Source: an uncultured Bacteroidaceae bacterium (GTDB lineage: Bacteria; Bacteroidota; Bacteroidia; Bacteroidales; Bacteroidaceae). Taken from it: a stretch of DNA of 64,000 bases. The position numbers and the translations under genes are program-made. Shown here piece after piece: positions 19,710 through 34,850 of the stretch; position 1 is the stretch's first letter; each line of letters begins with the position of its first letter. The notes under the pieces are model-generated. The model did not search any database, had not been told where the DNA came from, and was given only the letters and a program-made list of their open reading frames with translations. The DNA lies in contig CAJONZ010000105.1 of NCBI GenBank assembly GCA_905236065.1, forward strand, positions 1 through 64,000. Direction: 5' to 3'.

Positions 19710-19835
19710 CGTGGTCTTGAACAGGACGTCAGCAATGGCGGGATTCTGAGGAAATGGATGGTAGGATTGCTGTTGTTAAAAAAACAGCAAAACGGAAAGT
19801 TTTTATTGAAGAAAATAATTGTTTCTTTCTCTCCC

Positions 19836-19916
19836 AAAAATGTTGCATTGTAACAGATTGGGGAATAGATGCAACATTTCTTGTGGAAAGGAAGGGTGTT
19901 TTGTGATTAACTTTGC
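19836..19916 (+). promoter_or_regulatory. Fructan-locus operator and promoter 1 (MFS gene)
   Basis: AAATGTTGCAT (19838-19848) and its exact complement ATGCAACATTT (19869-19879) form an inverted pair. The 9-bp cores start 29 bp apart, and the second core starts 39 bp before the -7 box TAACTTTGC (19908-19916). There is no well-placed -33 box, which suits an activator. The same layout recurs at 22879 and 31080. Confidence 0.75.
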
Positions 19917-19953
19917 AGCAAAAATAACAATCTAACATAAATCTCAAATCGAC

Positions 19954-21105
19954 ATGAACAAAAACAACCTTTCCCGACTCATCCCCGTCATGCTGTGTTT
20001 CTTTGCCATGGGGTTCGTCGATCTGGTGGGCATCGCCAGCAACTATGTGAAGGCCGACCTCAATCTCTCAGATTCGATGGCGAACATCTTTCCTTCGCTC
20101 GTTTTTTTCTGGTTCCTCATCTTCAGTGTGCCGACAAGTCTTTTGATGAATAAGATAGGACGTAAGAATACGGTTCTGTTGTCTCTGCTTATTACGGCCC
20201 TCAGCCTCTTCATCCCCATCTTTGCTGAGAACTTCTATGTAATGCTCATTGCCTTCTCCCTGCTCGGCATTGGCAACGCATTGATGCAGACCTCGCTCAA
20301 TCCGCTTGTGGCTACTGTCATGCAGGGAGGTAACCTTGCCAGCACCCTCACCTTCGGACAGTTCATCAAGGCCATCGCTTCCTTCATGGCACCCTACATC
20401 GCCATGTGGGGCGCCGCAGCCAGCATCCCCACTTTCGGGCTCGACTGGCGCATCCTCTTCCCCATTTATTTAATAATAGGTGTTTTGGCCACGCTGTTGC
20501 TCTATGTCACCAAAATTGATGAACCCTGCACCCAGGGCAAGCCCTCCTCTTTCGTGGGAGCCATCAAATTGTTGGGCAACCCACTCATTCTGCTCTGCTT
20601 CCTTGGCATCATGTGTCACGTGGGCATTGATGTGGGCACTAATACCACTGCCCCCAAGCTCCTTATCGAGCGTCTTGGCATGACTCTTAACGAGGCTGCC
20701 TTTGCCACATCGCTCTATTTCATTTTCCGTACGATAGGATGTCTCACCGGCAGCTTCATCCTTCGGAAGGTGAGTAACCGCACCTTCCTCTTCATCAGTG
20801 TTGTGATGATGGCACTTGCCATGGCAGGCATGTGGATGGGTACGGAATTGTGGGTGCTTTATGCGGCCATCGCCCTTGTCGGCTATGGCAACTCCAATGT
20901 CTTCTCTCTCTGTTTTGCGCGTGCTCTCGATGTTGCTGGCGACAAGCAGAATGAGGTCAGCGGACTGATGATTATGGGCCTTTTTGGCGGCACCCTCTTC
21001 CCGCTGCTCATGGGCTTTGCCTCCGATGCAGTGGGTCAGGCTGGAGCTGTCGCCGTGATGGCTGTCGGTGTAGTCTATCTCTTCTTTTTCTGGACCCGGA
21101 AATAA
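19954..21105 (+). CDS. MFS sugar transporter, probable fructose importer
   Basis: A 383-residue protein with about twelve hydrophobic segments and the MFS loop signature 'LLMNKIGRKNTVLL' between helices 2 and 3. It resembles the FucP/GluP branch of sugar:proton symporters (for example 'LGIGNALMQTSLNPLVATVM'). In the Bacteroides fructan locus an MFS carrier imports free fructose across the inner membrane. The same job is likely here, because its promoter carries the same operator as susC and a fructokinase lies in the locus. Confidence 0.82.
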   Translation: MNKNNLSRLIPVMLCFFAMGFVDLVGIASNYVKADLNLSDSMANIFPSLVFFWFLIFSVPTSLLMNKIGRKNTVLLSLLITALSLFIPIFAENFYVMLIAFSLLGIGNALMQTSLNPLVATVMQGGNLASTLTFGQFIKAIASFMAPYIAMWGAAASIPTFGLDWRILFPIYLIIGVLATLLLYVTKIDEPCTQGKPSSFVGAIKLLGNPLILLCFLGIMCHVGIDVGTNTTAPKLLIERLGMTLNEAAFATSLYFIFRTIGCLTGSFILRKVSNRTFLFISVVMMALAMAGMWMGTELWVLYAAIALVGYGNSNVFSLCFARALDVAGDKQNEVSGLMIMGLFGGTLFPLLMGFASDAVGQAGAVAVMAVGVVYLFFFWTRK

Positions 21106-21161
21106 CACACCCCATTACAATAAAACAAAACATTAATTTAGAAAAGATTAGCATTTTTCCC

Positions 21162-21191
21162 GCTGGAGCTTGTGAAAGTTCCAGCATTTTT
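21162..21191 (+). terminator. Terminator after the MFS gene
   Basis: A 10-bp stem GCTGGAGCTT / AAGTTCCAGC (one wobble pair), loop GTGA, then five T residues. It lies directly before the -7 box of the regulator gene. Confidence 0.8.
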
Positions 21192-21194
21192 GTC

Positions 21195-21203
21195 TATCTT
21201 CGC
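21195..21203 (+). promoter_or_regulatory. -7 box of the regulator gene
   Basis: TATCTTCGC, a variant of TAnnTTTGC, lies 33 bp before the ATG. No copy of the locus operator is seen here, so the regulator seems not to control its own gene by that site. Confidence 0.55.
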
Positions 21204-21236
21204 ACCGTAAAAACCCAAAATAGAACACCCCATCCC

Positions 21237-22850
21237 ATGAAAAATCCCCTATACCCCCTCTGCCTCCTCCTCTCCCTCACCTTCCTTTCCCTCTCCTGCA
21301 CAGGTGAGCGGAAGAAAATCGTTGCCGTCTCGCAATGCTCCATGGACGAATGGCGCAACCAGATGAACGAGGAAATGCGGCGCGAAGCATTCTTCCATAC
21401 CGACCTTGACGTGGAGATTCATTCCACACCCGACAACACCCAGCAGCAGATAGCCGACATCGAAAGCTTCATCCAACGAAAAGTCGATGCCATCGTCGTG
21501 GCACCCAACGAATGGCATCCCCTTCGTCCCGTCATCGAGAAAGCCTACGATGCAGGCATCCCCGTCATCCTGATTGACCGTAAAATCAACAGCAAGAAAT
21601 ACACGGCTTTCGTCGGAGGCGACAATGTGGATGTAGGCCGGAAGGCCGCCCACTACATCCGAAACCTCCTGCCCAATGGCGGCACCCTCATCGAGATTGA
21701 AGGACTTGCCAGCAGCACCTCCTCACAGGAACGCAAGCAGGGACTGCATGAAGTGCTCGACTCCTTTCCCGACATCCGTATCGCCGCCGACGTGATTGCC
21801 AATTGGCAGCGTCAGCGAGCCTTTGAGGTGATGGACAGCATCGGCCCTCAGATTGCCCACGAACCCGTTGACATCATCTTTGCCTACAACGACCGCATGG
21901 CTATCGGCGCACGGCAGTCGTTGGAAAAAGCGATGAAGGCAGGCAAACTAAGTCTGCCTCGGATGCCCCTCTTCATCGGTGTGGATGCCCTGCTCAACGA
22001 CACCCTGGGCATCGGGCGAGTGGCCGACGGCACCCTCGAAGCCTCATTCCTCTACCAGACAGGCGGCGACAAAGCCATCCATACCGCTGCCTGCATCCTC
22101 AACGGATTGCCCTACGAGCGGGACCAAGTGTTTGAAACCTGTTTGGTGAACCGAGGCAACGTCCACCTTATGCGCATTCAGGCCAACCACATCAAAGAAC
22201 AGGAAGGCAAGATTGAATTTCTCAACAACCGCCTCGATCAATTCTTCAAGGAATATTCCGCTCAGCGCATCCTCCTCTGGACCTTCATCATTCTGGTCAT
22301 CCTGCTCATGGCATTCATCGTCATGGGCATCCGATTCGTTCGCGTGAAACACCGCATGAACGCCAAGCTCCAGCACAAGAACGAACTCCTGCAGCGTCAG
22401 CGTGACGAATTGGAGGCCGAACGCGACAAACTCATCGAGGCACAGATGACCACTGCCGAAAAGCATGAAATAGAAGTGGAGATGGAGCAGAGCGAACAGC
22501 GCATCGAACGGGGCGAAGGACTCTTGCCCCAAGACCAGCGGTTCATCGACAAATTCAACACCGTCCTCCAGCAAAACATGGACAACTCCGAACTCACCGT
22601 CGATATGCTCGGTGCCGAAATGAACCTCGGACGTGTACAACTCTACCGCCGCATCAAGTCCCTCACCGGACATTCCCCCAACGAACTCCTGCGCATTGCC
22701 CGCCTCACACGCAGCAGGGAACTCCTGCAAGATGGCCGGCACAACATCTCCGAAGCAGCCTACGCCGTTGGCTTTTCCTCCCCCTCCTACTTTGCCAAGT
22801 GCTACAAAGACCATTTCGGCCAGCCCCCCACCGCCACATTAAGAAAATAA
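21237..22850 (+). CDS. Membrane-anchored AraC-type regulator with periplasmic sugar-binding domain
   Basis: A 537-residue protein. Residues 1-20 are a signal sequence ending in a lipobox-like LSLSC21. Residues 28-310 are a LacI/ribose-binding-type periplasmic domain ('VDAIVVAPNEWHPLRPVIEKA', 'IPVILIDRKI', 'FVGGDNVDVGRKAA', 'IIFAYNDRMAIGA', 'FIGVDAL'). A coil (314-343), one transmembrane helix (345-367) and a second coil (368-425) follow. Residues 430-535 are an AraC double helix-turn-helix ('LTVDMLGAEMNLGRVQLYRRIKSLTG', 'ISEAAYAVGFSSPSYFAKCYK'). The Bacteroides fructose sensor BT1754 has the same ends but carries kinase and receiver domains between them. Those are absent here, with no room for them. 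It probably activates the fructan locus on sensing fructose. Confidence 0.85.
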   Translation: MKNPLYPLCLLLSLTFLSLSCTGERKKIVAVSQCSMDEWRNQMNEEMRREAFFHTDLDVEIHSTPDNTQQQIADIESFIQRKVDAIVVAPNEWHPLRPVIEKAYDAGIPVILIDRKINSKKYTAFVGGDNVDVGRKAAHYIRNLLPNGGTLIEIEGLASSTSSQERKQGLHEVLDSFPDIRIAADVIANWQRQRAFEVMDSIGPQIAHEPVDIIFAYNDRMAIGARQSLEKAMKAGKLSLPRMPLFIGVDALLNDTLGIGRVADGTLEASFLYQTGGDKAIHTAACILNGLPYERDQVFETCLVNRGNVHLMRIQANHIKEQEGKIEFLNNRLDQFFKEYSAQRILLWTFIILVILLMAFIVMGIRFVRVKHRMNAKLQHKNELLQRQRDELEAERDKLIEAQMTTAEKHEIEVEMEQSEQRIERGEGLLPQDQRFIDKFNTVLQQNMDNSELTVDMLGAEMNLGRVQLYRRIKSLTGHSPNELLRIARLTRSRELLQDGRHNISEAAYAVGFSSPSYFAKCYKDHFGQPPTATLRK

Positions 22851-22878
22851 AAGTTTCAACTTTGTTGCAACCTCATCC

Positions 22879-22959
22879 AAAAATGTTTCATCGAAACAAG
22901 TTTGCGAGCGGTTGCAACATTTGTTTATAGTAATAGCTATGCACACTCGCTACCTTTGC
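22879..22959 (+). promoter_or_regulatory. Fructan-locus operator and promoter 2 (susC)
   Basis: ATGTTTCAT (22883-22891), within the perfect palindrome TGTTTCATCGAAACA, and TTGCAACAT (22912-22920) start 29 bp apart. The second core starts 39 bp before the -7 box TACCTTTGC (22951-22959). No -33 box stands at the usual 19-21 bp. Confidence 0.75.
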
Positions 22960-23018
22960 GGCAACAAAACCGAGAACAAAAAACAGTTATTACTAACATT
23001 TAAAATCTTCAACCCATT

Positions 23019-26000
23019 ATGAAGAACAAAATCTTTCTCAGTCTTCTCGCCCTGACGGTTCCTCTGCTTGCGTGGAGTCAGACCATCACCGTGAAAGGTA
23101 TCGTGACCGAGAACGTGTTCAACGAACCCGTCATGGGGGCCACCGTCGTGGAGACAGGCACAAGCAACGGTGTCGCCACCGACATGGATGGACGTTTCAC
23201 CCTCACTGTCCCCACGAAGAGCACCTTGACCATCTCCTTCATCGGTTACAAGACTCAAGTACAAAAACCGCAACCCACGATGACCGTCGTGCTGGAAGAA
23301 AACTCCGAGCTTCTCAACGAAATGGTCGTCACGGGCTACACCGTGCAGCGCAAGGCCGACCTGACAGGTGCCGTCAGCGTGGTCAGTGTCGATGAGATTG
23401 CCAAGCAAAATGAAAACAACCCCATCAAGGCGTTGCAAGGTCGTGTGCCAGGCATGAACATCGCTGCCGACGGCAACCCCTCCGGTGCGGCTTCCGTCCG
23501 CATCCGTGGCATCGGAACCTTGCGCGACGGTGCCAGCGAACCGCTCTACATCATCGACGGCGTTCCGACCAAAGCCGGTATGCACGAACTCAACGGAAAC
23601 GACATTGAAAGCATCCAGGTCCTGAAGGACGCTTCTTCCGCTTCCATCTACGGTAGCCGTGCCGCCAACGGTGTCATCATCATCACCACCAAGCGAGGCA
23701 AGGAGGGCAAGGTGAAAATCAATTTCGACGCAAGCGTTTCGGCTCAGACCTACGCCCACAAGATGAAGGTACTCAATGCAAGGGAATTCGGACAAGTGAT
23801 GTGGCAGGGTTACGTAAACGACGGCTTCAATCCCAACATGAATGGCCTGGGCTACCAGTACGACTGGGGTTACGACTCGCAAGGCGTACCCGTGCTGAAC
23901 GGCATCACCATGAGCAAATACCTCGACGCAGCCGGCACCACGCCCGCTTCCGACACCGATTGGTTTGACGAGACCACCCGCACGGGCTTCATCCAACAGT
24001 ATAACCTCTCCCTGAGCAATGGCTCCGAGCGCGGTTCCTCCTTCTTCTCTTTGGGTTATTATAAAAACAAGGGCATCATCAAGCATTCTGATTTTGAGCG
24101 CTTTTCCGCCCGCATGAACTCAGATTACAAACTCATCAAAGTGGGCGAGCGTCACCTCATCACCGTCGGCGAGAACTTCACGGTGAACCGTACCAGCGAG
24201 GTACAGGCTCCCGGCGGCTTTCTGGAGAACGTGCTTCAGTTCAACCCCTCGCTGCCCATACGTACGGTGGACGGCGACTATGCCGGTCCCGTGGGCGGCT
24301 ATCCCGACCGTGAGAACCCGTTGGCACGGTTGGAACGCAACAGCGACAACCGCTACAGCTACTGGCGCATGTTCGGCGATGCCTACCTCAACATCAACCC
24401 CTTCAAAAACTTCAACGTCAAGACCACCTTCGGCCTCGACTACTCCCAGAAGCAACAGCGCATCTTCCAGTACCCCGTCACCGAGGGCACGGTGGCCAAC
24501 AAGACCAATTCCGTCGAGGCCAAGCAGGAACACTGGACCCGGTGGATGTGGAATGCCATCGCCACCTACAACCTCGAAGTGGGCAAGCATCGTGGCGACA
24601 TCCTGCTGGGTACCGAGTTGAACCGCGAAGACGACGTTTGGTTCAGCGGAAAACGCAACGACTTCGAACTGCTGAACTCCGACTACATGTGGCCGAATGC
24701 CGGTGTCGGCGAATCGTTGGCACAAGGCAGCGGCGAAGGCTACACACTGACCTCATTCTTCGGCAAGCTGAACTATACCTACAATGACCGCTACATAGCC
24801 AGCTTCACCCTGCGCTACGACGGCAGCAGCCGTTTCGGCAAACACAACCGCTACGGAACCTTCCCCTCCGTCAGTGCCGGTTGGCGCATCAGCGAGGAGT
24901 CGTTCATGAAGAACCTGACGTGGCTTGACAACCTGAAACTTCGTGCCAGCTGGGGACAGACGGGTAACCAAGAGATTCCCAACCTGGCCCGCTATACGCG
25001 CTATATCAGCGATTACGGCGAAGCTAAGTTCGGAGGCCAGAGCTACGGAACCAGCTACGACATCGCCGGCAGCAACGGCGGTCAGACACTCCCTTCCGGT
25101 TTCAAGCGTACCCAGCTGGGCAACGACGACCTGAAATGGGAAACCACCACGCAGACCAACCTCGGCTTCGACTTCGGCCTCTTCAACAACGCCCTCTACG
25201 GCTCCTTTGAATGGTACTTCAAGAAGACCAAGGACATTCTGGTCGATATGCCCGCCATCATGGTGATGGGCGAAGGAACCAACCAGTGGATCAATGCCGG
25301 CGAGATGGAAAACAAAGGCATCGAGTTGAACGTAGGCTACCGGGGCAAGGTGGGCGACTTCCAGTACGACGTCTCCGGCAACATCGGCACCTACCGTAAC
25401 AAGATTACGCGGTTGCCAGAGACCGTCGCCTCCAGTGGAGACTTTGGCGGCAACCGCGTAGAGAGTGTCGTCGGCCATCCCTTTGGCGCACAGGTTGGTT
25501 TCGTCTATGACGGCATTTTCAAGAGTCAGGAGGAAATCGACAACCATGCTGTCCAAAATGGCGCCGGCCTCGGTCGTATCCGATGGAAAGATCTCAATGG
25601 CGACGACGTTATTAACGAGAAAGACCAACAGTGGATTTATTCACCCGTTCCCGATTTCACCTGGGGTCTGAACATCTACCTCCAGTACAAGAACTGGGAC
25701 TTCACCATGTTCTGGCAAGGCGTACAGGGCGTGGATGTCATCAGCGACTTGAAACGCGAGACCGACTTGTGGAGCGGCCTCAACATCTCCAACCTGAACA
25801 AGGGCCGCCGCCTGCTCGACGCATGGAGTCCAACCAACATGGACTCAAACATCCCCGCCGTCAGCACGATGGACAACAACAACGAGAAGCGCGTCAGCAG
25901 CTACTTCGTGGAGAACGGCTCCTACGCCAAGCTGCGCACCGTCCAGCTGGGATACAACTTCCCCCAGCGCGTTTGCGGGAAAATAGGCATGGAGCGCCTC

Positions 26001-26132
26001 CGCGTGTACCTGTCCGCCCAGAACCTGTTCACCATTAAGAGCAAAAGTTTCACGGGCGTCGATCCGGAGAATGCCAACTTTGGGTATCCCATTCCCCTCA
26101 ACGTCACTTTCGGAATCAATGTTTCATTTTAA
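23019..26132 (+). CDS. SusC-type TonB-dependent outer-membrane transporter
   Basis: A 1037-residue protein. A signal peptide (ending LLAWSQ) is followed by a carboxypeptidase-like regulatory domain (22-95, 'VKGIVTENVFNEPVMGATVVETGTSNG'), a plug domain (105-225, 'ALQGRVPGMNI', 'IRGIGTLRDGASEPLYIIDGVP', 'DIESIQVLKDASSASIYGSRAANGVIIITTKRG') and a large barrel ending in phenylalanine. SusC proteins import oligosaccharides bound by their SusD partner, powered by TonB. It is the first gene of a four-gene run (susC, susD, binding protein, GH32-like lipoprotein) reading from operator 2. Confidence 0.95.
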   Translation: MKNKIFLSLLALTVPLLAWSQTITVKGIVTENVFNEPVMGATVVETGTSNGVATDMDGRFTLTVPTKSTLTISFIGYKTQVQKPQPTMTVVLEENSELLNEMVVTGYTVQRKADLTGAVSVVSVDEIAKQNENNPIKALQGRVPGMNIAADGNPSGAASVRIRGIGTLRDGASEPLYIIDGVPTKAGMHELNGNDIESIQVLKDASSASIYGSRAANGVIIITTKRGKEGKVKINFDASVSAQTYAHKMKVLNAREFGQVMWQGYVNDGFNPNMNGLGYQYDWGYDSQGVPVLNGITMSKYLDAAGTTPASDTDWFDETTRTGFIQQYNLSLSNGSERGSSFFSLGYYKNKGIIKHSDFERFSARMNSDYKLIKVGERHLITVGENFTVNRTSEVQAPGGFLENVLQFNPSLPIRTVDGDYAGPVGGYPDRENPLARLERNSDNRYSYWRMFGDAYLNINPFKNFNVKTTFGLDYSQKQQRIFQYPVTEGTVANKTNSVEAKQEHWTRWMWNAIATYNLEVGKHRGDILLGTELNREDDVWFSGKRNDFELLNSDYMWPNAGVGESLAQGSGEGYTLTSFFGKLNYTYNDRYIASFTLRYDGSSRFGKHNRYGTFPSVSAGWRISEESFMKNLTWLDNLKLRASWGQTGNQEIPNLARYTRYISDYGEAKFGGQSYGTSYDIAGSNGGQTLPSGFKRTQLGNDDLKWETTTQTNLGFDFGLFNNALYGSFEWYFKKTKDILVDMPAIMVMGEGTNQWINAGEMENKGIELNVGYRGKVGDFQYDVSGNIGTYRNKITRLPETVASSGDFGGNRVESVVGHPFGAQVGFVYDGIFKSQEEIDNHAVQNGAGLGRIRWKDLNGDDVINEKDQQWIYSPVPDFTWGLNIYLQYKNWDFTMFWQGVQGVDVISDLKRETDLWSGLNISNLNKGRRLLDAWSPTNMDSNIPAVSTMDNNNEKRVSSYFVENGSYAKLRTVQLGYNFPQRVCGKIGMERLRVYLSAQNLFTIKSKSFTGVDPENANFGYPIPLNVTFGINVSF

Positions 26133-26150
26133 GACAAGGAAATTGCAATT

Positions 26151-27887
26151 ATGAAAACTACCCATAAACTTATCACCTGCCTTCTGAGCTGCAACGTGAT
26201 TGCAGCCCTCACTTCCTGCTCCGGCTTCCTGGACGAGCACACGCCGCAGGGCACACTCAGCGAGGAGCAAGTGAAGTCTTCTGAGAATGCGGAAAACATG
26301 GTCGTTTCCGCCTACGCCATCTTCACGACAGCCGAAGACATCAACTCCAGTTTCTCGATGTGGAACTTCGACGTCCGCAGCGACGACGCCTACAAAGGCG
26401 GCAACGGCACCAACGACGGCGACGTGTTCCACCAGTTGGAAGTCCAGCAGGGCGTACTGACTACGAACTGGAACATCAGCGACATGTGGCAGCGCCTCTA
26501 CGACTGCATCTCCCGCGTGAACGGTGCCATGGCGTTGCTGAACGCCTGCGATGACAGTTTCGCCCCGAAGCAACAGCGGCTGGCCGAGATGAGGTTCCTG
26601 CGGGCCTACGCCCATTTCCAGCTGAAGCGGCTGTATAAGCATATCCCCTTCGTGGTGGACGAGAACATGACCTCGGAGGAGTATTACACGCTGTCAAACC
26701 GCACCTACACAAACGACGGAGGATGGCAACTCATCATCGACGACCTGACGCAGGCCTACAACACCCTGCCGACCGAGCAGGCCGAGAAGGGACGCCCGAC
26801 CAAGGCGGCTGCCGCTGCCCTGCTGGCCAAGGCCTATCTCTACAAGGCTTACCGCCAGGAGGATGCCGCTACGAACCAGGTGACCAGCGTCAACGCACAG
26901 GATTTGCAGCGCGTCATTGAGTTCACCAACCCCTCGCTCTATGCCAACTATGGACTGGAAAGCGACCTGCACAACAACTTCCGCCCCGAGGAGCAGTATG
27001 AGAATGGGGTGGAGAGCATCTGGGCCATCCAGTATTCGCGCAACGACGGCAGCACCTACGGCAACCTGAACTGGAGCTTCGGCCTCATTCCGCCCAACAT
27101 CCCCGGCGTACTCGACGGCGGTTGCGACTTCTATAAGCCGTCGCAGAACCTCGTCAATGCCTTCCGCACGGGCGACGACGGCCTGCCCCTGCTCGACTCG
27201 TACAACGCCAAGGACTATGACCTGACGACGGACAATGCCGACCCGCGCCTCTTCCTCACCGTCGGCATCCCCGGCCTGCCCTACATGTTCAACCGAAACT
27301 TCATGATGGACAAGAGCGAGACGTGGAGTCGCTCACGCGGCGTCTATGGCTACAACGTGTCGCTAAAGCAGAATGTGGATCCTGCCCTCATCGACCAGTA
27401 CCTCATCAAGGGTAGCTATTGGGCCAGTCCGATGAACCGCATCGTACTGCGCTATGCCGACGTGCTGCTGATGAGGGCCGAGGCATACGCCCAATTGGGT
27501 CAAACCACGGAGGCCATCCAGCTGGTCAACCGACTGCGCAGCCGTGCCGCGGGCAGTACGCAGATGATAGGCAGCTACCCGCACCTGTATGGCGTGAAAA
27601 TCCACGTGGCCAACTACCGAGGCAGCTACACGAAGGAGGAGGCGCTCAGGATTGTGAAGATGGAGCGCCGCCTGGAACTGGCCATGGAGTACGAGCGTTT
27701 CTTCGACCTGGTGCGATGGGGCGATGCCGCCACCGTGCTGAACAAATACTTTGCCGAGGAGATTCCCCACTGCGCCATCTACAGCAACGCCTTCTTCACG
27801 GCAGACAAGGACGAGTACCTGCCCATCCCCCTGCAGGCGATGTCCGATTCGCAGGGACGCTACACGCAAAATGCGGGGAATTGGTGA
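26151..27887 (+). CDS. SusD/RagB-type glycan-binding lipoprotein
   Basis: A 578-residue lipoprotein with a lipobox near residues 21-25 (ALTSC). The helical SusD fold is recognisable in 'MRFLRAYAHFQLKRLYKHIPFV', 'GRPTKAAAAALLAKAYLYKA' and, near the end, 'RYADVLLMRAEAYAQLG' and 'KMERRLELAMEYERFFDLVRWGDA'. It starts 18 bp after susC and forms the lid of the SusC transporter. Ligand specificity cannot be read from sequence, but the GH32 neighbours point to fructan. Confidence 0.94.
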   Translation: MKTTHKLITCLLSCNVIAALTSCSGFLDEHTPQGTLSEEQVKSSENAENMVVSAYAIFTTAEDINSSFSMWNFDVRSDDAYKGGNGTNDGDVFHQLEVQQGVLTTNWNISDMWQRLYDCISRVNGAMALLNACDDSFAPKQQRLAEMRFLRAYAHFQLKRLYKHIPFVVDENMTSEEYYTLSNRTYTNDGGWQLIIDDLTQAYNTLPTEQAEKGRPTKAAAAALLAKAYLYKAYRQEDAATNQVTSVNAQDLQRVIEFTNPSLYANYGLESDLHNNFRPEEQYENGVESIWAIQYSRNDGSTYGNLNWSFGLIPPNIPGVLDGGCDFYKPSQNLVNAFRTGDDGLPLLDSYNAKDYDLTTDNADPRLFLTVGIPGLPYMFNRNFMMDKSETWSRSRGVYGYNVSLKQNVDPALIDQYLIKGSYWASPMNRIVLRYADVLLMRAEAYAQLGQTTEAIQLVNRLRSRAAGSTQMIGSYPHLYGVKIHVANYRGSYTKEEALRIVKMERRLELAMEYERFFDLVRWGDAATVLNKYFAEEIPHCAIYSNAFFTADKDEYLPIPLQAMSDSQGRYTQNAGNW

Positions 27888-27931
27888 CTTTCAACATGTA
27901 GTTCATAATGATAACAAAAAAAGCAAGAATC

Positions 27932-29326
27932 ATGAAAACCATCTATAGTGAAATCCTTTGTCTCCTCTGCCTGCTCTGTGCCGCCGCTTGCAGCGACGGG
28001 CACGACGGCGACTTGCGCCTCGGTGGGGACTGCCAGGTCGAGGCCCTTACGCTCGACAACTACGAGGGGAAGATTGACCGGGCTGCCCGCTCCATCGTCG
28101 TCCAACTGCCGGAGACGTATGACCACGCTGCCGTGCAGGTGACGAGCCTGCGCCTCTCCGAGGGTGCCGCCTGCAACGTGAGGCAGGGCGAAGTCCTCAA
28201 CATGGATGCGGCCAAGGTGCTGCGCGTCTGGAATGGCGACGCATTCCTCGACTGGACGCTGTCGGTCATCCACGACGAGGCCCGCATCAGCAACTTCATC
28301 CTCAACGACCTCTACACGGGAACCATCAACCAGGCTGCCAAGACCATCACGGTGTATGTGCCTGCCACGGTTGAACTGACCGGCATGGTCCCGACGATTC
28401 TCCTGAGCACGAACGCGGGGGTTGCTCCCGCCTCTGGCGTGCCGCAGGACTTCTCCCAGCCCGTGACCTACACGGTGAGGAACAACTCGGCTGAGGCGAC
28501 CTACACGGTCACCGTCGTGGCCATCGACAAGCCTGCCGCCCTGTTTGTCGGCTCCGCTGCATCGATGAGCGAACTCGACCCGGAGGCGAAGGCTGCCTGC
28601 GAGTGGATGCTGGGCAATGTGGCAGGGTCGCTCTATGCCTCCTTCGCCGACCTCCGTGCCGGCACACTCGACCTCTCCGACTGCAAGGTTGTTTGGTGGC
28701 ACTGGCACCACTCCCCTGCCGTCGATGGGCACGACGACTTTGTGACGAAGGGTGCGGATGCGCTCGACACGAAGAACCAGCTGCGCTCGTTCTATGAGAA
28801 CGGCGGTGCCCTGCTGCTCACCCGCTATGCCACCAACCTGCCCTCGTTCATCGGGGCCACGGGAGACGACGAATGGACTACGCCCAACAACTGCTGGGGC
28901 GACGAGGAGAACAATGCCAAGGTGTGCGGCAGCCCCTGGGACTTCCGCATCTTCGACGGACAGGCCGACCATCCGCTGTGGAGCAACCTGATTCAGGGCG
29001 ACGAGGCAGGCAGGGTCTATTGCACCGATGCCGGCTACCACATCACCAACTCCACGGCACAATACCATATCGGGACAGACTGGGGCGGCTATGCCAACTA
29101 TGACGCCTGGACAACCCGCACGGGTGGCAGGATTCTGGGCGTGGGTGGCGACGGTGCCATCGTTGCCTGGGAATATCCGGCCCACGACGGCAAGGGCGGC
29201 ATCGTCTGCATTGGCTCTGGCTGCTACGACTGGTATTCCAATGCCTTCGAGCCGGGCTATGCCGAGAACTTCCACAAAAACATTGCGACTATCACTCAGA
29301 ATGCCATCAACTATTTAACGAAGTAA
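27932..29326 (+). CDS. DUF4960-like surface lipoprotein, probable fructan-binding protein
   Basis: About 464 residues from the preferred start MKTIYSEILCLLCLLCAAAC, a lipoprotein signal; an ATG 24 bp upstream is possible. Two small Ig-like modules (about 25-110 and 111-190) precede a C-terminal domain of roughly 280 residues opening 'KPAALFVGSAASMSELD' and rich in tryptophan ('VVWWHWHHSP', 'DEWTTPNNCWGDEE'). This resembles the DUF4960 region of lipoproteins found beside susD in GH32 loci. In Bacteroides the equivalent position (BT1761) holds a surface glycan-binding protein. No catalytic motif was recognised. Confidence 0.65.
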   Translation: MKTIYSEILCLLCLLCAAACSDGHDGDLRLGGDCQVEALTLDNYEGKIDRAARSIVVQLPETYDHAAVQVTSLRLSEGAACNVRQGEVLNMDAAKVLRVWNGDAFLDWTLSVIHDEARISNFILNDLYTGTINQAAKTITVYVPATVELTGMVPTILLSTNAGVAPASGVPQDFSQPVTYTVRNNSAEATYTVTVVAIDKPAALFVGSAASMSELDPEAKAACEWMLGNVAGSLYASFADLRAGTLDLSDCKVVWWHWHHSPAVDGHDDFVTKGADALDTKNQLRSFYENGGALLLTRYATNLPSFIGATGDDEWTTPNNCWGDEENNAKVCGSPWDFRIFDGQADHPLWSNLIQGDEAGRVYCTDAGYHITNSTAQYHIGTDWGGYANYDAWTTRTGGRILGVGGDGAIVAWEYPAHDGKGGIVCIGSGCYDWYSNAFEPGYAENFHKNIATITQNAINYLTK

Positions 29327-29333
29327 CAAGACC

Positions 29334-30989
29334 ATGAATACGATTTATAGCAAAATGCTCTCTATGCTCTGTGTGCCCTGCCTGCTGTGTGCTGCCTGCA
29401 GCGAGGAAAGCTTTGATGCCGACCCTGCCCGCGACTGGGCAGGCACGAGCCACCTTTTCGTCCCCACGGACGATGCCGGTTTCAACACCTACTACAAACC
29501 CGCCGTGGGCCGCGTCGGCGATGCCATGCCGTTCTACGATCCGAAGGTGGGCGACTTCAAGGTGCTCTACCTGCAGGAGTACGACAACAACGGCCCCTGC
29601 TACCATCCCTACTGGGGAGTCAGCACCCGCGACGGTGCCAACTACGCTTCCCTGGGCGAAGTGCTGCCTGCCGGCACCTCCACCGCCCAGCAGGATGCCA
29701 GCCTCGGTACGGGCTGTGCCCTCTACGACGAGGAGGACGGCCTCTACTACATCTACTATACGGGCTACAACGTCCTGTTGCCCAACCGCGAGGTGGTCAT
29801 GCGTGCCACCTCCCCCGACTTCAAGAACTGGAAGAGGGACAACGCATGGCAGCTGAAAGGTGCCGACTACGGCTATAGCAGCACGGACTTCCGTGACCCA
29901 CAGGTCTTCACGGCAGAGGATGGCTTCTTCCACCTGATTGTCTCCACCCGTCCCGCAGGGAGTGGCAATCCCGTCTTCGCCGAGTTCAAGTCCGCCGACC
30001 TGAAGACATGGGAGCACGTCGGCCAGTTCCCCATGATTTGGAACCGCTTCCTGGAGTGTCCCGACATCTTCAAGATGGGCGACTGGTGGTACATGGTCTA
30101 TAGCGACAGCTACAAGGAAAACTGGTGCCGGAAGGTGAAGTACAAGAAAGCATCGACCTACGAGGGACTGAAGGCCTGCTTCGACGGTTCTGACGCAGGA
30201 GAGGCCGTTCTCGACAGCCGTGCCTTCTATGCCGCCAAGACGGCCTCGAACGGTACCGACCGCTACATCTGGGGCTGGTGTCCCTACCGCACGGGGTCTG
30301 ACCTCCACGAGAAGAACACCAATGTGGGCGGTGGAACGGGCAATGAGCCCAACTGGTCTGGGGCCCTTGTCTGCCACAAGGTTGTCCAACACGCCGACGG
30401 TTCGTTGACGTTAGGCAAGGTTCCGACCATGGATGCCAAGTACAACAAGCCACAGGCTGTCACCACCATGGCCGCCAACGGCAGCAACGCCGTACCCGGT
30501 GCGTCGGTTCCTGATGCCTTCACCCTCTCCGGCAACGATGCCTATACCCTTTTCTCCCGTCTTGGCACCTGCAACCACATCAGCTTCACCGTCGCTACCA
30601 GCAACAACTGGGATCGCTTTGGCATATCCTTCGTCCGCAGCACTGACACCGACTTTTACTACACCATCGTCGTCAACCCCGAAGACGAGAACCACCGCAA
30701 GCTCAACTTTGAGCAGGAGGGCTACCGCCTCAAACTCAATGACAAGGGTGAGGAAGAGAAAGTCAACGGAAAGGGCTTCATCGAGGGCATTGACGGCTAC
30801 TGGTTCGAGCGTCTCGCCGACAACACGTACCACATTGACATCTACACGGATAACAGCGTCCTGACGCTTTACATCAACGATGTCTGTGCCTACACCCAAC
30901 GCATCTACGGCATCCAAAAGAATTGCTGGAGCATCAACAACTACGGTGGCTCCGTCACCGTTAGGGATGTGAAAGTCAGCCAGCAGTAA
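29334..30989 (+). CDS. GH32-like surface lipoprotein (atypical nucleophile motif)
   Basis: A 551-residue lipoprotein (LLCAAC, cysteine 22). The first 330 residues form a five-bladed propeller related to GH32. The usual WMNDPNG is replaced by VGDAMPFYD, with D63 in the nucleophile position. 'FRDPQVF' (D188) matches the transition-state-stabilising RDP motif, and 'ECPDIF' (E241) supplies the acid/base. The C-terminal 170 residues form a beta-sandwich, as in GH32. It starts 7 bp after the DUF4960-like gene. It is probably a surface endo-fructanase making oligosaccharides for SusC/D; substrate linkage is unknown. Confidence 0.72.
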   Translation: MNTIYSKMLSMLCVPCLLCAACSEESFDADPARDWAGTSHLFVPTDDAGFNTYYKPAVGRVGDAMPFYDPKVGDFKVLYLQEYDNNGPCYHPYWGVSTRDGANYASLGEVLPAGTSTAQQDASLGTGCALYDEEDGLYYIYYTGYNVLLPNREVVMRATSPDFKNWKRDNAWQLKGADYGYSSTDFRDPQVFTAEDGFFHLIVSTRPAGSGNPVFAEFKSADLKTWEHVGQFPMIWNRFLECPDIFKMGDWWYMVYSDSYKENWCRKVKYKKASTYEGLKACFDGSDAGEAVLDSRAFYAAKTASNGTDRYIWGWCPYRTGSDLHEKNTNVGGGTGNEPNWSGALVCHKVVQHADGSLTLGKVPTMDAKYNKPQAVTTMAANGSNAVPGASVPDAFTLSGNDAYTLFSRLGTCNHISFTVATSNNWDRFGISFVRSTDTDFYYTIVVNPEDENHRKLNFEQEGYRLKLNDKGEEEKVNGKGFIEGIDGYWFERLADNTYHIDIYTDNSVLTLYINDVCAYTQRIYGIQKNCWSINNYGGSVTVRDVKVSQQ

Positions 30990-31014
30990 CAAAACTGGCG
31001 GGATGCATTCCCCC

Positions 31015-31052
31015 GATGGGAGGATGTGTCAAAACAGACCTATCCTCCCATC
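31015..31052 (+). other. Hairpin after the susC operon
   Basis: GATGGGAGGAT (31015-31025) pairs perfectly with 31042-31052. It has no T run, and lies just before the terminator proper. Confidence 0.5.
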
Positions 31053-31056
31053 ATTG

Positions 31057-31106
31057 AAAAAAATCGTTCAATATAGCAGAAAAATGTTGCATTGAACGAT
31101 TTTTTT
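31057..31106 (+). terminator. Terminator of the susC operon, overlapping operator 3
   Basis: A 16-bp perfect inverted repeat (31057-31072 with 31091-31106), including seven A residues on one side and seven T on the other, with an 18-base loop. The loop and right arm contain the first arm of the locus operator. Confidence 0.82.
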
Positions 31107-31159
31107 GTGCCAATGAAACATAATTGATTTCGAGACAGGAACATTCATCCTACTTTTGC
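31080..31159 (+). promoter_or_regulatory. Fructan-locus operator and promoter 3
   Basis: ATGTTGCAT (31084-31092) and ATGAAACAT (31113-31121) start 29 bp apart. The second core starts 38 bp before the -7 box TACTTTTGC (31151-31159). This matches operators 1 and 2 in layout. Confidence 0.72.
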
Positions 31160-31193
31160 AGCGGAATTGCAAAACACTAAAAACGGAATGAAC

Positions 31194-32120
31194 ATGAAAA
31201 AGATTTTACTTCTGGCAACGATGTTTGCCGCAACAGTATGTAACGCACAGAACGTCCTATGGAATGGTAATGACAAGGAAGTGGGTAGCGACGGTGGTTT
31301 CTGGAACCGGGCTGACCCCACAGTGGTTGAAGACAATGGCAACAAGTGCCTGAAGGTGACACTAAAGGGGAACCCTGGTGGTTGGGATCAGGAACACCAC
31401 AATGCCGCACTGCCGATTGGCGATGCCAATTTCAAGGGATTGCGCCGCATATCCTTCCGTCTGAAAATGTCCGACAAGCACAACGTGATGGTGCAACTGG
31501 AAGGCAATGGCTACAATATCAAGCGTGTGTTCTGGTACGACACTCCAGGTGAGTGGCAGACGATGGTCTATGAATTCGGGGCTGGCCCAGACAATGAGAA
31601 GATAACGGAAACGGGCAACAACGTGCTGGCCATCTGGCCCTTCGAAGAGACTGCCGACGGTGAGGGCAAAACGGTTTATATCGATGACATCCAATTGAAC
31701 GGCCCCTTGGTAAACGAGGTGGGTGTGCGCACGTTGGCCGACAATTCGTTGACGGGGGAAGTGAAAGTTACCGGAAACTTGGAGGCTGGACACTATCAGA
31801 ACACCTGGGACGGTGATTGGCACAGCGAAGACTTCAGCGATTATAGCCTCCTGGCTGCAAAACTGGCCACCGACGCCACGGTGCTGGACGCCACGGAAGC
31901 CACATTGGTTGACCCGAACTGGGAGGCCGTTCTTGCCAAGTGTCCGGGTATCACCATCCGTACCGGCACGAGCGACATCACAGGCATCCATGCCCTCACG
32001 GAAGATGCAAGGAAGGCGAAGGGCACAGAAACAGGTGCATGGTACGACTTGCAAGGCCGACGCATCGCCAAGCCCGTGAAAGGTTTGTACATCAAGAACG
32101 GGAAAAAATACGTGAAGTAG
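31194..32120 (+). CDS. Small secreted CBM-like protein with T9SS-type tail
   Basis: About 308 residues. The start MKKILLLATMFAATVCNAQ is chosen because an upstream methionine (31167) falls at the predicted transcription start. After the signal peptide comes a jelly-roll of about 160 residues with carbohydrate-binding character ('SDGGFWNRADPTVVEDNGNK', 'RRISFRLKMS', 'GEWQTMVYEF', 'VYIDDIQLNG'). A second region follows (about 175-255), then a C-terminal tail 'WYDLQGRRIAKPVKGLYIKNGKKYVK' like Prevotella T9SS cargo. It has its own copy of the fructan operator and precedes the GH32 gene. It may bind fructan outside the cell; no known family was assigned with certainty. Confidence 0.68.
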   Translation: MKKILLLATMFAATVCNAQNVLWNGNDKEVGSDGGFWNRADPTVVEDNGNKCLKVTLKGNPGGWDQEHHNAALPIGDANFKGLRRISFRLKMSDKHNVMVQLEGNGYNIKRVFWYDTPGEWQTMVYEFGAGPDNEKITETGNNVLAIWPFEETADGEGKTVYIDDIQLNGPLVNEVGVRTLADNSLTGEVKVTGNLEAGHYQNTWDGDWHSEDFSDYSLLAAKLATDATVLDATEATLVDPNWEAVLAKCPGITIRTGTSDITGIHALTEDARKAKGTETGAWYDLQGRRIAKPVKGLYIKNGKKYVK

Positions 32121-32144
32121 TTAGCTTGTATGCAGAAAAAACAG

Positions 32145-32153
32145 TATTTTTGC
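32145..32153 (+). promoter_or_regulatory. Possible internal -7 box before the GH32 gene
   Basis: TATTTTTGC lies 46 bp before the chosen GH32 start. No properly spaced -33 box and no operator copy were seen, so the GH32 gene may also depend on read-through from promoter 3. Confidence 0.4.
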
Positions 32154-32198
32154 GGCAAAGGTGTATCAAGTACAATGTACATTCAACGTAAAAAAAAG

Positions 32199-33914
32199 AT
32201 GAAGAAAATAAAATGCTTTTTCCTGATGTCTGCACTCGCGGCACTCCCCATGGGGGGTGTCTGCGAGACGCAGAGACTACAGGTTGGCGACGGAACGCCG
32301 GAAATAGTAGTGACACCACAGGCTTGCGAACAGAGCATCGTGACGCCGAAAGCCGAGGGACGCTACCTTTGGCTGCCCATCCAGGAGTCCGCTCCCGAAG
32401 GGAAGGTGCAGGTTATCGTCAGCGGCATGGTGCAAATGGAACAGCATGTGCGCATGGCTCGTGAGCAAGTCGATTACTATGTGGCACTCGACCTGCAGCC
32501 ATATCTCAGCGAGAAATCGCTGAGGGTCTGTGTGCAGAATGTGCCGACGGGCAGCGTATGCTTCCAGAAACTGGCACAGAATGATGATGCCGACTATGCG
32601 CTTATCCAGGAGAAATACCGCCCGCTGTATCACCACACCCCCAAACGCGGATGGATGAACGACCCCAATGGTATGTTCTACAAGGACGGCGTGTGGCATC
32701 TTTACTACCAGTACAACCCCTACGGTTCCATGTGGGGCAACATGCACTGGGGACACTCTAGTTCCACCGACCTCATCCACTGGAAGGACGAAGGCGTGGC
32801 TCTGGCTCCCGATGCGTGGGGAACCATGTTCAGCGGGTCGTGCGTGATTTTACCACAAAACGGACAGGGTGGAGAAGTCGTGGCGATGTACACGGCCAGC
32901 CGTCCCACACCGTTTGGCGGTGATGTGCAGGCACAGTGCATCGCCTTTTCCAACGACGGTGGAAAAACGTTCAAGAAGTACGAGGGAAACCCTGTGCTGA
33001 CCGCCGAGGACAAAGACTTCCGCGACCCGCGCCCATTCTGGAACGAGGACATCAAGGCGTGGAACCTGATCTTGGCTGCTGGACAGGAAATGCGCATCTA
33101 CTCGTCACCAGACTTGAAGCGTTGGAAGTACGAGTCAGCTTTCGGCAAGGAGTACGGCAACCACGGCGGTGTGTGGGAGTGCCCAGACCTGTTCCCGTTG
33201 GAGGTGAGAGGTGAGAAGAAAAAGGTGAGAAAAAAATGGGTGCTTATTTGCAACATCAACCCAGGAGGTCCCTTCGGTGGCAGTGCCACGCAGTATTTTG
33301 TGGGTGACTTCGACGGCCATCACTTTACGGTGGATGATGCCAGTCGTTACACCGACGGAAAGGCGCTGTGGATGGACTATGGCAAAGACCACTACGCCAC
33401 AGTGTCGTTTGCCAATGCGCCTGATGGAAGAAGGACAGTAATGGCATGGATGTCGAACTGGCAGTATGCCAACGAGGTGCCGACCAAACAATTCCGATCG
33501 GCCAACTCGATTGCCCGCGACCTGTTCCTCTATGAGGTGAGAGGGAGAAAGAAAGAGGTGAGAGGGGAGTGGTTCCTGGGTAGCCGTCCGGCCATAGAGT
33601 ATGACGGCAAGGGACTGGACAAGACGTACAGGGTGAAGGGCTCGACCACCATCCGTCTGACGAATGCTGAGGGAGATGTGTTTGTCATCACTTACGACCA
33701 AAAGGCCATGACCCTCTCATGCGACCGCACCCAGTGTGGCGAAACGTCGTTCAGCGAACACTTTCCTGCCGTGACAGTGGCTCCCGTACACAGAAAACTG
33801 ACGAGCATCCGCGTGTTCATTGATAACAGTTCGGTAGAGGTGTTCGGCAACAACGGCGAAGTGGTACTGACCAATCTCGTCTTCCCCCAAAGCCCGTTGA
33901 ATCATCAAAAATAG
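32199..33914 (+). CDS. GH32 fructan hydrolase (levanase/inulinase/invertase type)
   Basis: About 572 residues from MKKIKCFFLM, with a signal peptide ending near GGVC. After an N-terminal beta domain (25-130), the GH32 propeller carries all catalytic motifs: GWMNDPNG (nucleophile D155), FRDPRPF (D276) and WECPDLF (acid/base E327). A C-terminal sandwich follows ('SIRVFIDNSSVEVFGNNGEVVLTN'). It releases fructose from fructan chains or sucrose, probably in the periplasm. Two short purine-rich segments, at residues 335-347 and 446-458, encode nearly the same peptide (EVRG-KK-VR--W) and look inserted. The fructokinase gene follows by 30 bp. Confidence 0.92.
   Translation: MKKIKCFFLMSALAALPMGGVCETQRLQVGDGTPEIVVTPQACEQSIVTPKAEGRYLWLPIQESAPEGKVQVIVSGMVQMEQHVRMAREQVDYYVALDLQPYLSEKSLRVCVQNVPTGSVCFQKLAQNDDADYALIQEKYRPLYHHTPKRGWMNDPNGMFYKDGVWHLYYQYNPYGSMWGNMHWGHSSSTDLIHWKDEGVALAPDAWGTMFSGSCVILPQNGQGGEVVAMYTASRPTPFGGDVQAQCIAFSNDGGKTFKKYEGNPVLTAEDKDFRDPRPFWNEDIKAWNLILAAGQEMRIYSSPDLKRWKYESAFGKEYGNHGGVWECPDLFPLEVRGEKKKVRKKWVLICNINPGGPFGGSATQYFVGDFDGHHFTVDDASRYTDGKALWMDYGKDHYATVSFANAPDGRRTVMAWMSNWQYANEVPTKQFRSANSIARDLFLYEVRGRKKEVRGEWFLGSRPAIEYDGKGLDKTYRVKGSTTIRLTNAEGDVFVITYDQKAMTLSCDRTQCGETSFSEHFPAVTVAPVHRKLTSIRVFIDNSSVEVFGNNGEVVLTNLVFPQSPLNHQK
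33201..33239 (+). repeat. Purine-rich in-frame segment 1 in the GH32 gene
   Basis: Thirteen codons reading EVRGEKKKVRKKW, built from GGTGAGA units. A related segment lies at 33534-33572. It falls between the WECPDLF motif and the conserved 'NINPGGPFGGSATQYF' block, in a loop region. Confidence 0.7.
33534..33572 (+). repeat. Purine-rich in-frame segment 2 in the GH32 gene
   Basis: Thirteen codons reading EVRGRKKEVRGEW, closely similar in DNA and peptide to 33201-33239. It lies just after 'ANSIARDLFLY', at the propeller-sandwich junction. Confidence 0.7.
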
Positions 33915-33944
33915 GAAACAATCAAACTTATACTTTTAAAAAAT

Positions 33945-34850
33945 ATGAGAACAGTAGTAGGCATTGGTGAGGCACTTTGGGATTGCCTCCCGGAAGGTAG
34001 AAAATTTGGCGGTGCGCCAACGAATTTCGCATATCATTGTGGGCAGTTCGGACTCGACGCCTGGGCTGCCAGTGCGGTGGGTGACGATGCGCTTGGGCAT
34101 GAAATCCTTGGCATTTGCAGGGATGCGGGCTTGCAGGTGGTTTGCCCGGAAGTACCCTACGAGACGGGGACGGTGCAGGTGACGCTCGACAAGAACGGCA
34201 TTCCGCTGTATGACATCAAGACGGGTGTGGCCTGGGACAACATCCCCTACACCAGGGAACTGGCAGACCTGGCACGACGGGCCGATGCCGTGTGCTGGGG
34301 GTCGCTGGCACAACGCTCATACGTGAGCCGTAACACCATCCGTAGCTTCATAGAGGATATGCCAAAGGATGCGCTGAAGGTGTTCGACATCAACCTGAGG
34401 CAGAATTTCTTCACGAAGGAGGTCATCGAATCCTCTTTGCAGATGTGTAACGTCTTAAAAATAAACGATGAGGAACTGGTGACCGTGAGCCGTGTGTTTG
34501 GCGCATTGCCCGAAAGCGATGACGACTTCGACACCATCTGGCAGCGCATCGACTTCGAGGGCAAATGCAGGGCTATCCTGACGAAGTACGACTTGCAGAT
34601 GCTTATCCTGACCTGTGGCGTGAATGGCTCGTATGTGTTCACCCCCGACGGCGAAGTGAGCCAACAGGGCACTCCAAAGGTAGAAGTGGCCGACACGGTG
34701 GGTGCCGGCGACTCGTTCACCGCCACCTTTGTCAGCAGTCTGCTCTTGGGCAAGTGTGTGAAGGAAGCCCATGAGCGTGCCGTGAAGGTGAGTGCCTTCG
34801 TCTGTACGCAACATGGAGCCATGCCCTTGATTCCCGCATCGTTGAAGTAG
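33945..34850 (+). CDS. PfkB-family fructokinase
   Basis: A 301-residue sugar kinase. It opens with 'VVGIGEALWDCLPEG...GGAPTNFAYH', typical of fructokinases, and carries the catalytic and anion-hole motif DTVGAGDSFTATF near 247-259. It would convert intracellular fructose to fructose-6-phosphate, feeding glycolysis. Its place at the end of the fructan locus, 30 bp after GH32, supports fructose as substrate over other PfkB sugars. Confidence 0.9.
   Translation: MRTVVGIGEALWDCLPEGRKFGGAPTNFAYHCGQFGLDAWAASAVGDDALGHEILGICRDAGLQVVCPEVPYETGTVQVTLDKNGIPLYDIKTGVAWDNIPYTRELADLARRADAVCWGSLAQRSYVSRNTIRSFIEDMPKDALKVFDINLRQNFFTKEVIESSLQMCNVLKINDEELVTVSRVFGALPESDDDFDTIWQRIDFEGKCRAILTKYDLQMLILTCGVNGSYVFTPDGEVSQQGTPKVEVADTVGAGDSFTATFVSSLLLGKCVKEAHERAVKVSAFVCTQHGAMPLIPASLK

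Follow-up and report, generated by a model that had tools for sequence, protein, structure and literature searches.

The I1-I2 operator of Escherichia coli AraC consists of ~17-bp sites arranged as a direct repeat 21 bp apart, with the proximal site at the -35 region. SusR is not known to use a phosphorelay. HTCS motifs, as printed in Ravcheev 2013 (PMC3878776), are direct repeats with an average spacing of 21 bp. In the same text, SusR is described as sensing maltose in the periplasm; its motifs are direct repeats at a spacing of 67 or 77 bp, and its DNA-binding domain is unlike those of other known transcription factors. In ChIP, enrichment for BT1754 was highest at the 3′ end of the gene that encodes it (PMC3404733). 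In the titles, abstract openings, and selected passages of open-access papers, we recognized no description of a four-box operator of the kind reported here or of a kinase-less HTCS_Fru.

We analyzed a window of 64,000 nucleotides (the whole stretch of DNA presented above), which carries a fructan locus with three promoters (Table 1). On its + strand, the window contains the sequence AAAAATGTTKCATYG exactly three times, starting at 19836, 22879, and 31080; the 9-mer ATGTTKCAT starts at 19840, 22883, and 31084, and a second core, RTGMAACAT or TTGCAACAT, at 19869, 22912, and 31113. The geometry put forward in the original prediction was reproduced in a pattern scan of the window, where the core starts were 29 bp apart at all three promoters and the second core preceded the -7 box (TAnnTTTG) by 39, 39, and 38 bp, start to start. 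None of the three promoters had a -33 box, as no TTTG was found at -33 spacing; at the MFS promoter TTTG preceded the -7 box by 8 bp and at susC by 31 bp, and at the third promoter it was absent. This placement, ahead of promoters lacking a -33 box, fits an activator site. The core pair did not occur in any of 200 dinucleotide-shuffled versions of the window. In the real window, five strand matches of the pair correspond to the three sites, and the -7 box was at the set distance in three of the five.

Table 1. Operators, -7 boxes, and genes of the fructan locus (positions in the window)
Feature	Position	Strand	Details
Four-box operator, MFS transporter	19819..19877	+	A0 19819-19826, A1 19840-19847, B1 19849-19856, B0 19870-19877; four-box scan 28/32; 57.2 bits with R1 (site in R1 training set); 0 mismatches to core pair
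-7 box, MFS transporter	19908..19915	+	TAACTTTG; 30 bp past B0
MFS sugar transporter	19954..21105	+	Pfam MFS_1 5e-34
Terminator-like hairpin	21162..21185	+	Between MFS and regulator genes; pattern match only, from a scan that as a whole was not above shuffles
Regulator gene	21237..22850	+	Lipobox-like N-terminus, fructose-sensor-type periplasmic domain, long helix, AraC-type domain
Four-box operator, susC	22862..22920	+	A0 22862-22869, A1 22883-22890, B1 22892-22899, B0 22913-22920; four-box scan 29/32; 58.9 bits with R1 (site in training set); orthologous sites in relatives
-7 box, susC	22951..22958	+	TACCTTTG; 30 bp past B0
susC-like TonB-dependent transporter	23019..26132	+	Pfam; heads susC-susD-DUF4960-GH32 unit
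susD	26151-27887	+	Pfam
DUF4960 protein	27908-29326	+	Pfam
GH32, BT1760-like	29334-30989	+	Pfam
Four-box operator, third unit	31063..31121	+	A0 31063-31070, A1 31084-31091, B1 31093-31100, B0 31114-31121; A0 and B1 in ATCGTTCA/TGAACGAT flavour, which recurs in relatives
-7 box, third unit	31151..31158	+	TACTTTTG; 29 bp past B0
Third unit	31191..34850	+	
Small protein, third unit	31191-32120	+	Signal-like start; no Pfam match
GH32, third unit	32130-33914	+	Pfam
PfkB sugar kinase, third unit	33945-34850	+	Pfam

The source genome (2.73 Mb, 88% complete) was then scanned for the core pair with up to three mismatches. Seven places were found, against one for the reversed-pattern control: the three window sites, two of them without a mismatch and one with a single mismatch, and four others with three mismatches each. 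This search confirmed the shared operator as real and confined it, in this 88% complete genome, to the fructan locus. Many copies at unrelated genes, an outcome named beforehand as refuting a shared operator, were looked for in the same genome and not found.

Each of the two cores noted earlier is the reverse complement of the other. Between them, the spacer, which had been called unrelated in sequence, turned out to contain a third box, and a fourth box was located 21 bp upstream of the first core. Start to start, the operator reads A0 ATGTTKCA -21- A1 ATGTTKCA -9- B1 TGMAACAT -21- B0 TGMAACAT. It is 59 bp long in the window and 58-60 bp in relatives, in which A1 and B1 start 8-10 bp apart, and the outer boxes, at times also the inner ones, may read ATCGTTCA or TGAACGAT. 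A half operator (B1-B0 plus the -7 box) elsewhere in the source genome was rejected, being not clearly above the reversed control: two matches had one mismatch (C71 and C89) and six had two, including the third window site, the only one of the window sites that suits the -7 distance of this pattern, and the four forward and four reverse matches compared with zero and three in the control. The idea that the two spacer arms pair like a hairpin was also rejected, because relatedness accounts for the match (own arms 6.49 of 13, shuffled partners 5.61, nearest relative's arm 6.34).

Conservation of the four boxes was evaluated by a blind selection, in which sites were defined only by TGMAACA followed 29-31 bp later by a -7 box; the sequences covered were the window and the loci fetched with the regulator protein. 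This yielded 28 sites, against one in reversed sequence; with at least five of six bases matching, A0 was present in 21, A1 in 22, and B1 in 23 of the 28. All loci together gave 60 non-identical sites, a less blind set because some loci were fetched with the model R1. Both A1 and B1 (at least six of eight bases) were found in 51 of them, and nine lacked A1 or B1. A0 accompanied the pair at the expected offset in 48 of the 51, compared with 11 of 867 at other offsets. These counts overstate independence because the genomes and operators are related. As R1 was trained with the three window sites, only the genome pair scan, the blind selection, and the window shuffles test those sites free of R1.

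From 38 four-box matches listed, three weak or genic ones were removed, leaving 35. TAnnTTTG lay 28-30 bp past B0 in 34 of these, the exception (L013) having none, and in loci of six other families, fetched with R1, the -7 box was 29-30 bp past the four boxes in seven of seven. The B1-B0 spacing was ungapped in all 33 aligned operators and the A0-A1 spacing in 31, being shorter by one base in L013 and L015:12203-12271; L025 had a weak B1. A direct repeat of two conserved sites ~21 bp apart was present upstream of PUL genes, as in HTCS-type operators, but the conserved sites numbered four, not only two.

The regulator encoded in the locus is 537 aa long and combines a periplasmic sensor (Pfam Peripla_BP_4, 4.5e-45) with an AraC-type DNA-binding domain (HTH_18, 3.1e-19), both as expected of an HTCS. 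The best Foldseek match of the sensor was 2x7x, the fructose domain of BT1754 (41% identity, TM 0.95 over the target). AlphaFold2 placed one long helix at residues 309-403, running nearly straight into the DNA-binding domain; this modelled helix would cross the membrane. Pfam searches gave no match in the regulator to the HTCS kinase domains HisKA and HATPase_c or to a CheY-like receiver (Response_reg). No operator was found upstream of the regulator gene in the R1 scan.

Among 66 strong-operator genomes, 62 carried a fructose-sensor regulator, although at least nine of the 62 had supplied training operators found through the regulator on the same contigs; minus the known training genomes, the sensor was present in 53 of 57. 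In the four genomes without a sensor match, the operator was on short contigs or close to where a contig ends. Seventeen of 99 sensor-bearing genomes had no R1 match at E≤0.01. On this co-occurrence, the AraC-type regulator of the locus, as originally suggested, is the best candidate for the predicted binding.

We consider it likely, from the sequence evidence, that the four-box operator is an activating palindrome to which two membrane-tethered regulator dimers would bind. Each 21-bp direct repeat would be one HTCS-style dimer site, with the two repeats facing each other. The membrane-anchored regulator would sense periplasmic fructose through its BT1754-like domain, and the ligand might shift helix 309-403 such that two AraC domains become spaced for one 21-bp repeat. 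Two dimers would fill the palindrome, and the B0 subunit, beside where a -33 box would be, would recruit RNA polymerase. Direct mechanical coupling would then have taken the place of the phosphorelay of the HTCS ancestors. Two AraC monomers bound at A1 and B1, with starts 8-10 bp apart, may clash, and perhaps not all four boxes are filled together. This ~60-base pad, at a near-fixed promoter distance, is probably the means by which gut bacteria of the group turn on their fructan-digesting genes.

It seems unlikely that a single dimer on the promoter-proximal B1-B0 repeat, the standard HTCS arrangement, suffices, with A0-A1 serving as an auxiliary repeat for a second dimer used in fine tuning or repression. 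The HTCS motifs printed in PMC3878776 are indeed direct repeats ~21 bp apart, B0 sits at a near-fixed -7 distance, and the T positions directly past B0 were more conserved than their mirror images. However, A0 and A1 were about as conserved as B1, and the window retains the upstream repeat although that side has no -7 box 27-31 bp on.

We regard as very improbable that CRP-type Cur (BT4338) or another factor occupies the central dyad TGTTKC-N3-GMAACA and leaves the outer boxes to the AraC regulator. The Cur consensus, as given in the text of PMC6989115, is likewise a TGTT...AACA dyad, and the dyad alone (up to one mismatch) occurs 43 times in the source genome versus 17 for the reversed pattern. 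However, a Cur/CRP site TATGTTnTAnAACATA, with TGTT and AACA 4 bp apart, was rejected for the operator centre on spacing, as the interval is 7 bp here and 6, 7, or 8 bp in relatives. The centre varies in length, whereas the distance between an inner and an outer box remains 21 bp, and one consensus is common to both kinds of box.

The original proposal, in which a single activator dimer would span A1 and B0, drew on their exact 29-bp spacing at all three promoters, in a pair unique in the genome, but we now give it almost no credence: A1 and B0 are non-neighbouring boxes of a palindrome, relatives conserve B1 and A0 equally well, the start-to-start distance from A1 to B0 varies among 28, 29, and 30 bp, tracking a centre of 8, 9, or 10, and the conserved unit is the almost always ungapped 21-bp spacing, present twice in opposite orientation.

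A histidine kinase was present in the four full-length relatives scanned (L024, L029, L033, and L037), and such full HTCS relatives retain the same operator. Each of the two recognition helices is similar between kinase-less and HTCS proteins. The sensor tree requires four kinase-state changes (4-5 in bootstraps), of a direction, loss or gain, that the tree does not distinguish. The receiver-lock residues D and K named in the text of PMC11253607, located by their 39-residue distance, were both found in 28 of 31 HTCS proteins versus 4 of 34 kinase-less ones; judged by these counts, the lock residues have decayed in the kinase-less forms. The operator has stayed constant while its probable binder appears to have lost phosphate-relay parts more than once. 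The 2024 receiver-DBD lock work (PMC11253607) raised the question of how an AraC domain bound to the membrane is kept from DNA when there is no receiver, and regulators with and without a kinase next to the same operator DNA offer a natural experiment on this point.

In five genomes, the far side of the operator faces a conserved RNA-like element. This divergent element had no Rfam match at the gathering threshold, the best hit of a lax search being a Plasmodium family (E 0.034), and antisense pairing with the PUL leader was rejected as no stronger than for random windows. We see about an even chance that a single DNA code is used with two kinds of signalling chemistry: fructose HTCSs would repeatedly have shed kinase and receiver to become mechanically coupled membrane transcription factors with the four-site operator unchanged, and in some species the far side would drive a conserved structured RNA without Rfam match, divergent from the fructan genes.

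The operator described here for the control of fructan (inulin, levan) genes is precise and occurs in several families within a single order of gut bacteria. The results suggest that, in the case of this regulator, the published two-site HTCS operator may represent one half of a larger element. The four-box operator could also help to locate fructan regulons in unannotated genomes.

With HTCS_Fru (BT1754) of Bacteroides thetaiotaomicron, the locus shares a periplasmic fructose-binding domain, an AraC-type domain, and a susCD-GH32-transporter-kinase fructan locus, but its regulator is without HisKA, HATPase_c, and Response_reg. At the operator level, the comparison is with the general published HTCS format, a two-site direct repeat against the four-site palindrome here. 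Half of the fructan operator is the 21-bp direct repeat of the HTCS operators printed in PMC3878776, whereas the two opposed repeats and the near-fixed -7 distance are different. The BT1754 ChIP peak falls at the 3′ end of the BT1754 gene, and the local susC operator sits just past the regulator's 3′ end. As for SusR, the sugar would be sensed in the periplasm and no phosphorelay would be involved, but the SusR repeats 67 or 77 bp apart are absent here and the spacing is 21 bp. Compared with AraC at I1-I2, the fructan operator has four mirror-symmetric sites and a membrane-bound regulator.

We first compared the three promoters of the fructan locus, where the original prediction had placed a shared sequence, AAAAATGTTKCATYG, followed by a second core. 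The shared sequence was present at each site, with the two cores 29 bp apart and the -7 box (TAnnTTTG) 38-39 bp from the start of the second core. As had also been claimed, TTTG at -33 spacing was found at none of the three promoters. The core pair occurred in 0/200 dinucleotide shuffles of the window, and a whole-genome scan (2.73 Mb, 130 contigs, 88% complete) with 0-1 mismatch returned the three window sites only. With 3 mismatches, four further places matched in the same genome, and the reversed-pattern control gave one. The fructan locus encodes an MFS transporter, the regulator, susC, susD, DUF4960, a BT1760-like GH32, a small protein with no Pfam match, a second GH32 and a PfkB kinase. 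The window also contains a tRNA gene recognized by Rfam (11030-11111, minus strand).

Thirty-eight loci were fetched from related genomes (L-numbers) by one scan of genome contigs with the regulator protein (21237-22850, plus strand) as query. In the orthologous susC leaders, the predicted pair proved real but incomplete, as the conserved block is larger: ATGTTKCA, ATGTTKCA, TGMAACAT and TGMAACAT (half-sites A0, A1, B1 and B0, in order toward the promoter) start 21, 9 and 21 bp apart, and the block as a whole is a palindrome. A four-box scan (at least 24/32) gave 39 placements in 689 kb and 0 in reversed sequences. From 38 non-overlapping hits, three that were weak or genic were dropped (L015:1776, L033:3597 and L033:15877), and TAnnTTTG lay 28-30 bp past the last box in 34 of the 35 retained operators, the exception being in L013. 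When 33 operators were aligned, the B1-B0 spacing was gapless and the A0-A1 spacing was one base shorter in two.

For a blind test, sites were picked by the last box and the -7 box alone, which yielded 28 sites (reversed control, 1). At least five of six bases were found at the predicted offset for A1 in 22/28, A0 in 21/28 and B1 in 23/28, the sites in this test and in its repeat being related by descent. The repeat on all loci, a set partly fetched by the operator model and so less clean than the 28 sites, gave 60 non-identical sites. A1 and B1 accompanied 51 of them, and A0 was present in 48 of these 51, compared with 11/867 at other offsets. The operator is real, and it is bigger and more symmetric than the predicted pair.

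Half-sites also vary. At the third window operator (31061-31104), A0 and B1 are a mutually complementary variant, AAATCGTTCAAT / ATTGAACGATTT, and the ATCGTTCA flavour reappears as an outer box in other operators. Left-right outer-box flavours among 71 operators were G-G in 42, C-G in 13, C-C in 12 and G-C in 4.

A sequence-only profile was then built from 33 operators. The three window sites, which belong to the training set, scored 58.9, 57.2 and 47.1 bits, and the next-best place in the genome scored 14.7 bits (E 0.06). The profile scan found no operator ahead of the regulator gene, which is preceded by a terminator-like hairpin (pattern match only). Within the family, 123/301 genomes matched at E<=0.01 and 66/301 at E<=1e-6. 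Across the order, 9/295 matched at E<=1e-6, seven of them from six other families, and in 7/7 loci of these families the -7 box lay 29-30 bp from the four boxes. The operator's range covers several families of the order. In 21/29 operator loci from the family search, a window fructan gene had a homologue within 1.5 kb. Seven of the remaining eight contain the start of a conserved protein that reaches at least 461 aa before the end of the locus truncates it, and the eighth, L079, ends with its contig. This first-gene protein has a signal-like start and gave no Pfam match in the six copies scanned (that of L024 and five cut ones).

Features at the operators of the window and of related loci
Feature	Location	Strand	Remark
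Operator	window		precedes MFS transporter; shared sequence at 19836
Operator	window		precedes susC; shared sequence at 22879
Operator	window		precedes small protein; shared sequence at 31080
Conserved protein, first gene behind operator	L059, L060, L061, L066, L069, L075, L077		cut
Conserved protein, first gene behind operator	L024:1007-3355		782 aa, then GH32
RNA-like element	L011:11699-11864	-	
RNA-like element	L012:11660-11825	-	
RNA-like element	L065:1292-1460	-	
RNA-like element	L100:4212-4395	+	
RNA-like element	L133:1497-1665	-	

In four loci (L011, L012, L065 and L100), a second -7 box lies 29-30 bp beyond the operator on its far side. Behind it is a conserved, apparently noncoding stretch of ~165 nt oriented away from the operator, and the -7 box suggests that this RNA-like element is transcribed. 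A DNA search detected it in 5/399 genomes of three genera, each time adjoining an operator (the fifth such case being in G044), and did not find it in the window's own genome; no Rfam family matched. One member folds at z -3.76. Two-sided changes occurred in 3/45 consensus pairs, with a covariation term near zero (-0.06) and two competing folds. One predicted fold has two hairpins with complementary loops, GAACCUGGUCUGCGACAACC and GGUCGCAGUUUGGUUC. A covariance model built for the element matched 23/399 genomes at E<=0.01, 18 beyond the five, with weak scores. Five weak matches that were read (L138-L142) resemble two-hairpin elements, three with CTGC(G/A)AC...GT(C/T)GCAG-like arms, and 0/5 had an operator match. 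Such matches possibly represent a wider RNA or mobile-element family.

Turning to the candidate binder, the regulator's sensor (E<=1e-25) was present in 62/66 strong-operator genomes, of which at least nine (G000, G048, G051, G052, G065, G071, G197, G211 and G238) had supplied profile-training loci found via the regulator; without these nine, the co-occurrence was 53/57. In the four sensor-less genomes, the operator is on short contigs or close to a contig end. Among the loci of these four, a related DNA-binding domain adjoins susC in L127, and L126 has a weak one. The sensor occurred in 99/301 genomes, 17 of which gave no operator match at the E<=0.01 threshold. Among solved structures, the sensor is closest in both sequence and fold to the BT1754 fructose-binding domain (2x7x). 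Judged from sequence, the regulator is likely the binder of the operator. L038 encodes a solo 110-aa AraC-type DNA-binding domain (9989-10321), 56% identical to the regulator's and without a sensor. It adjoins susC and a four-box operator of its own, and its contig also carries the L020 kinase-less regulator.

No kinase or receiver domain was found by Pfam in the 537-aa regulator. Its AlphaFold2 model (mean pLDDT 85) comprises a sugar-binding domain, a helix (309-403), a short helix (406-425) and an AraC domain, with low confidence at the helix joint (403-409). Relatives with frames uncut by contig ends are of two kinds, ~490-590 aa without and ~750-1200 aa with kinase and receiver. The operator is common to both; within either kind the distance between its inner boxes is 8 or 9 bp, and it is 10 bp in L021 and L031. 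In a sensor tree of 62 rows, from which 10 duplicates or fragments had been excluded, kinase state switches at least four times, in a direction not readable from the tree. Long-branched rows (L032, L035, L118 and L124) are of uncertain placement; support is good for the 15-row window clade (100/100) and for the position of L091 next to L122, a hybrid two-component system (HTCS) (99/88).

According to PMC11253607, the HTCS receiver presumably restrains the DNA-binding domain through a D of helix alpha6 and a K of the recognition helix. With these columns located by the published 39-residue distance, both residues were present in 28/31 fructose-type HTCSs and 4/34 kinase-less forms. K is mostly R in the window clade; in the clade around L089, D is mostly lost and K kept. 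This pattern, in rows that are related, is consistent with separate receiver losses. A lipobox-like N-terminus (one simple pattern; 10 duplicate or cut rows excluded) was seen in 25/33 kinase-less and 20/29 HTCS regulators, and the window regulator (21237-21300) has LSLSC, just outside the pattern. Sensors may be lipid-anchored besides membrane-spanning.

In the simplest reading, two membrane-tethered dimers would sit face to face on the operator, and the B0-bound subunit would substitute for the absent -33 contact. Both dimers may be bound simultaneously, and ligand may act through coupling via the helix. On sequence grounds, the operator is a new variant of HTCS-type regulation, here paired with a kinase-less regulator as its predicted binder. 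Each 21-bp repeat (two helical turns) agrees with the HTCS motif format published in PMC3878776, a direct repeat with an average spacing of 21 bp. PMC3404733 reports that ChIP enrichment of BT1754 (HTCS_Fru of Bacteroides thetaiotaomicron) was strongest at the 3' end of the BT1754 gene itself; in the window, the susC operator sits just beyond the regulator's 3' end.
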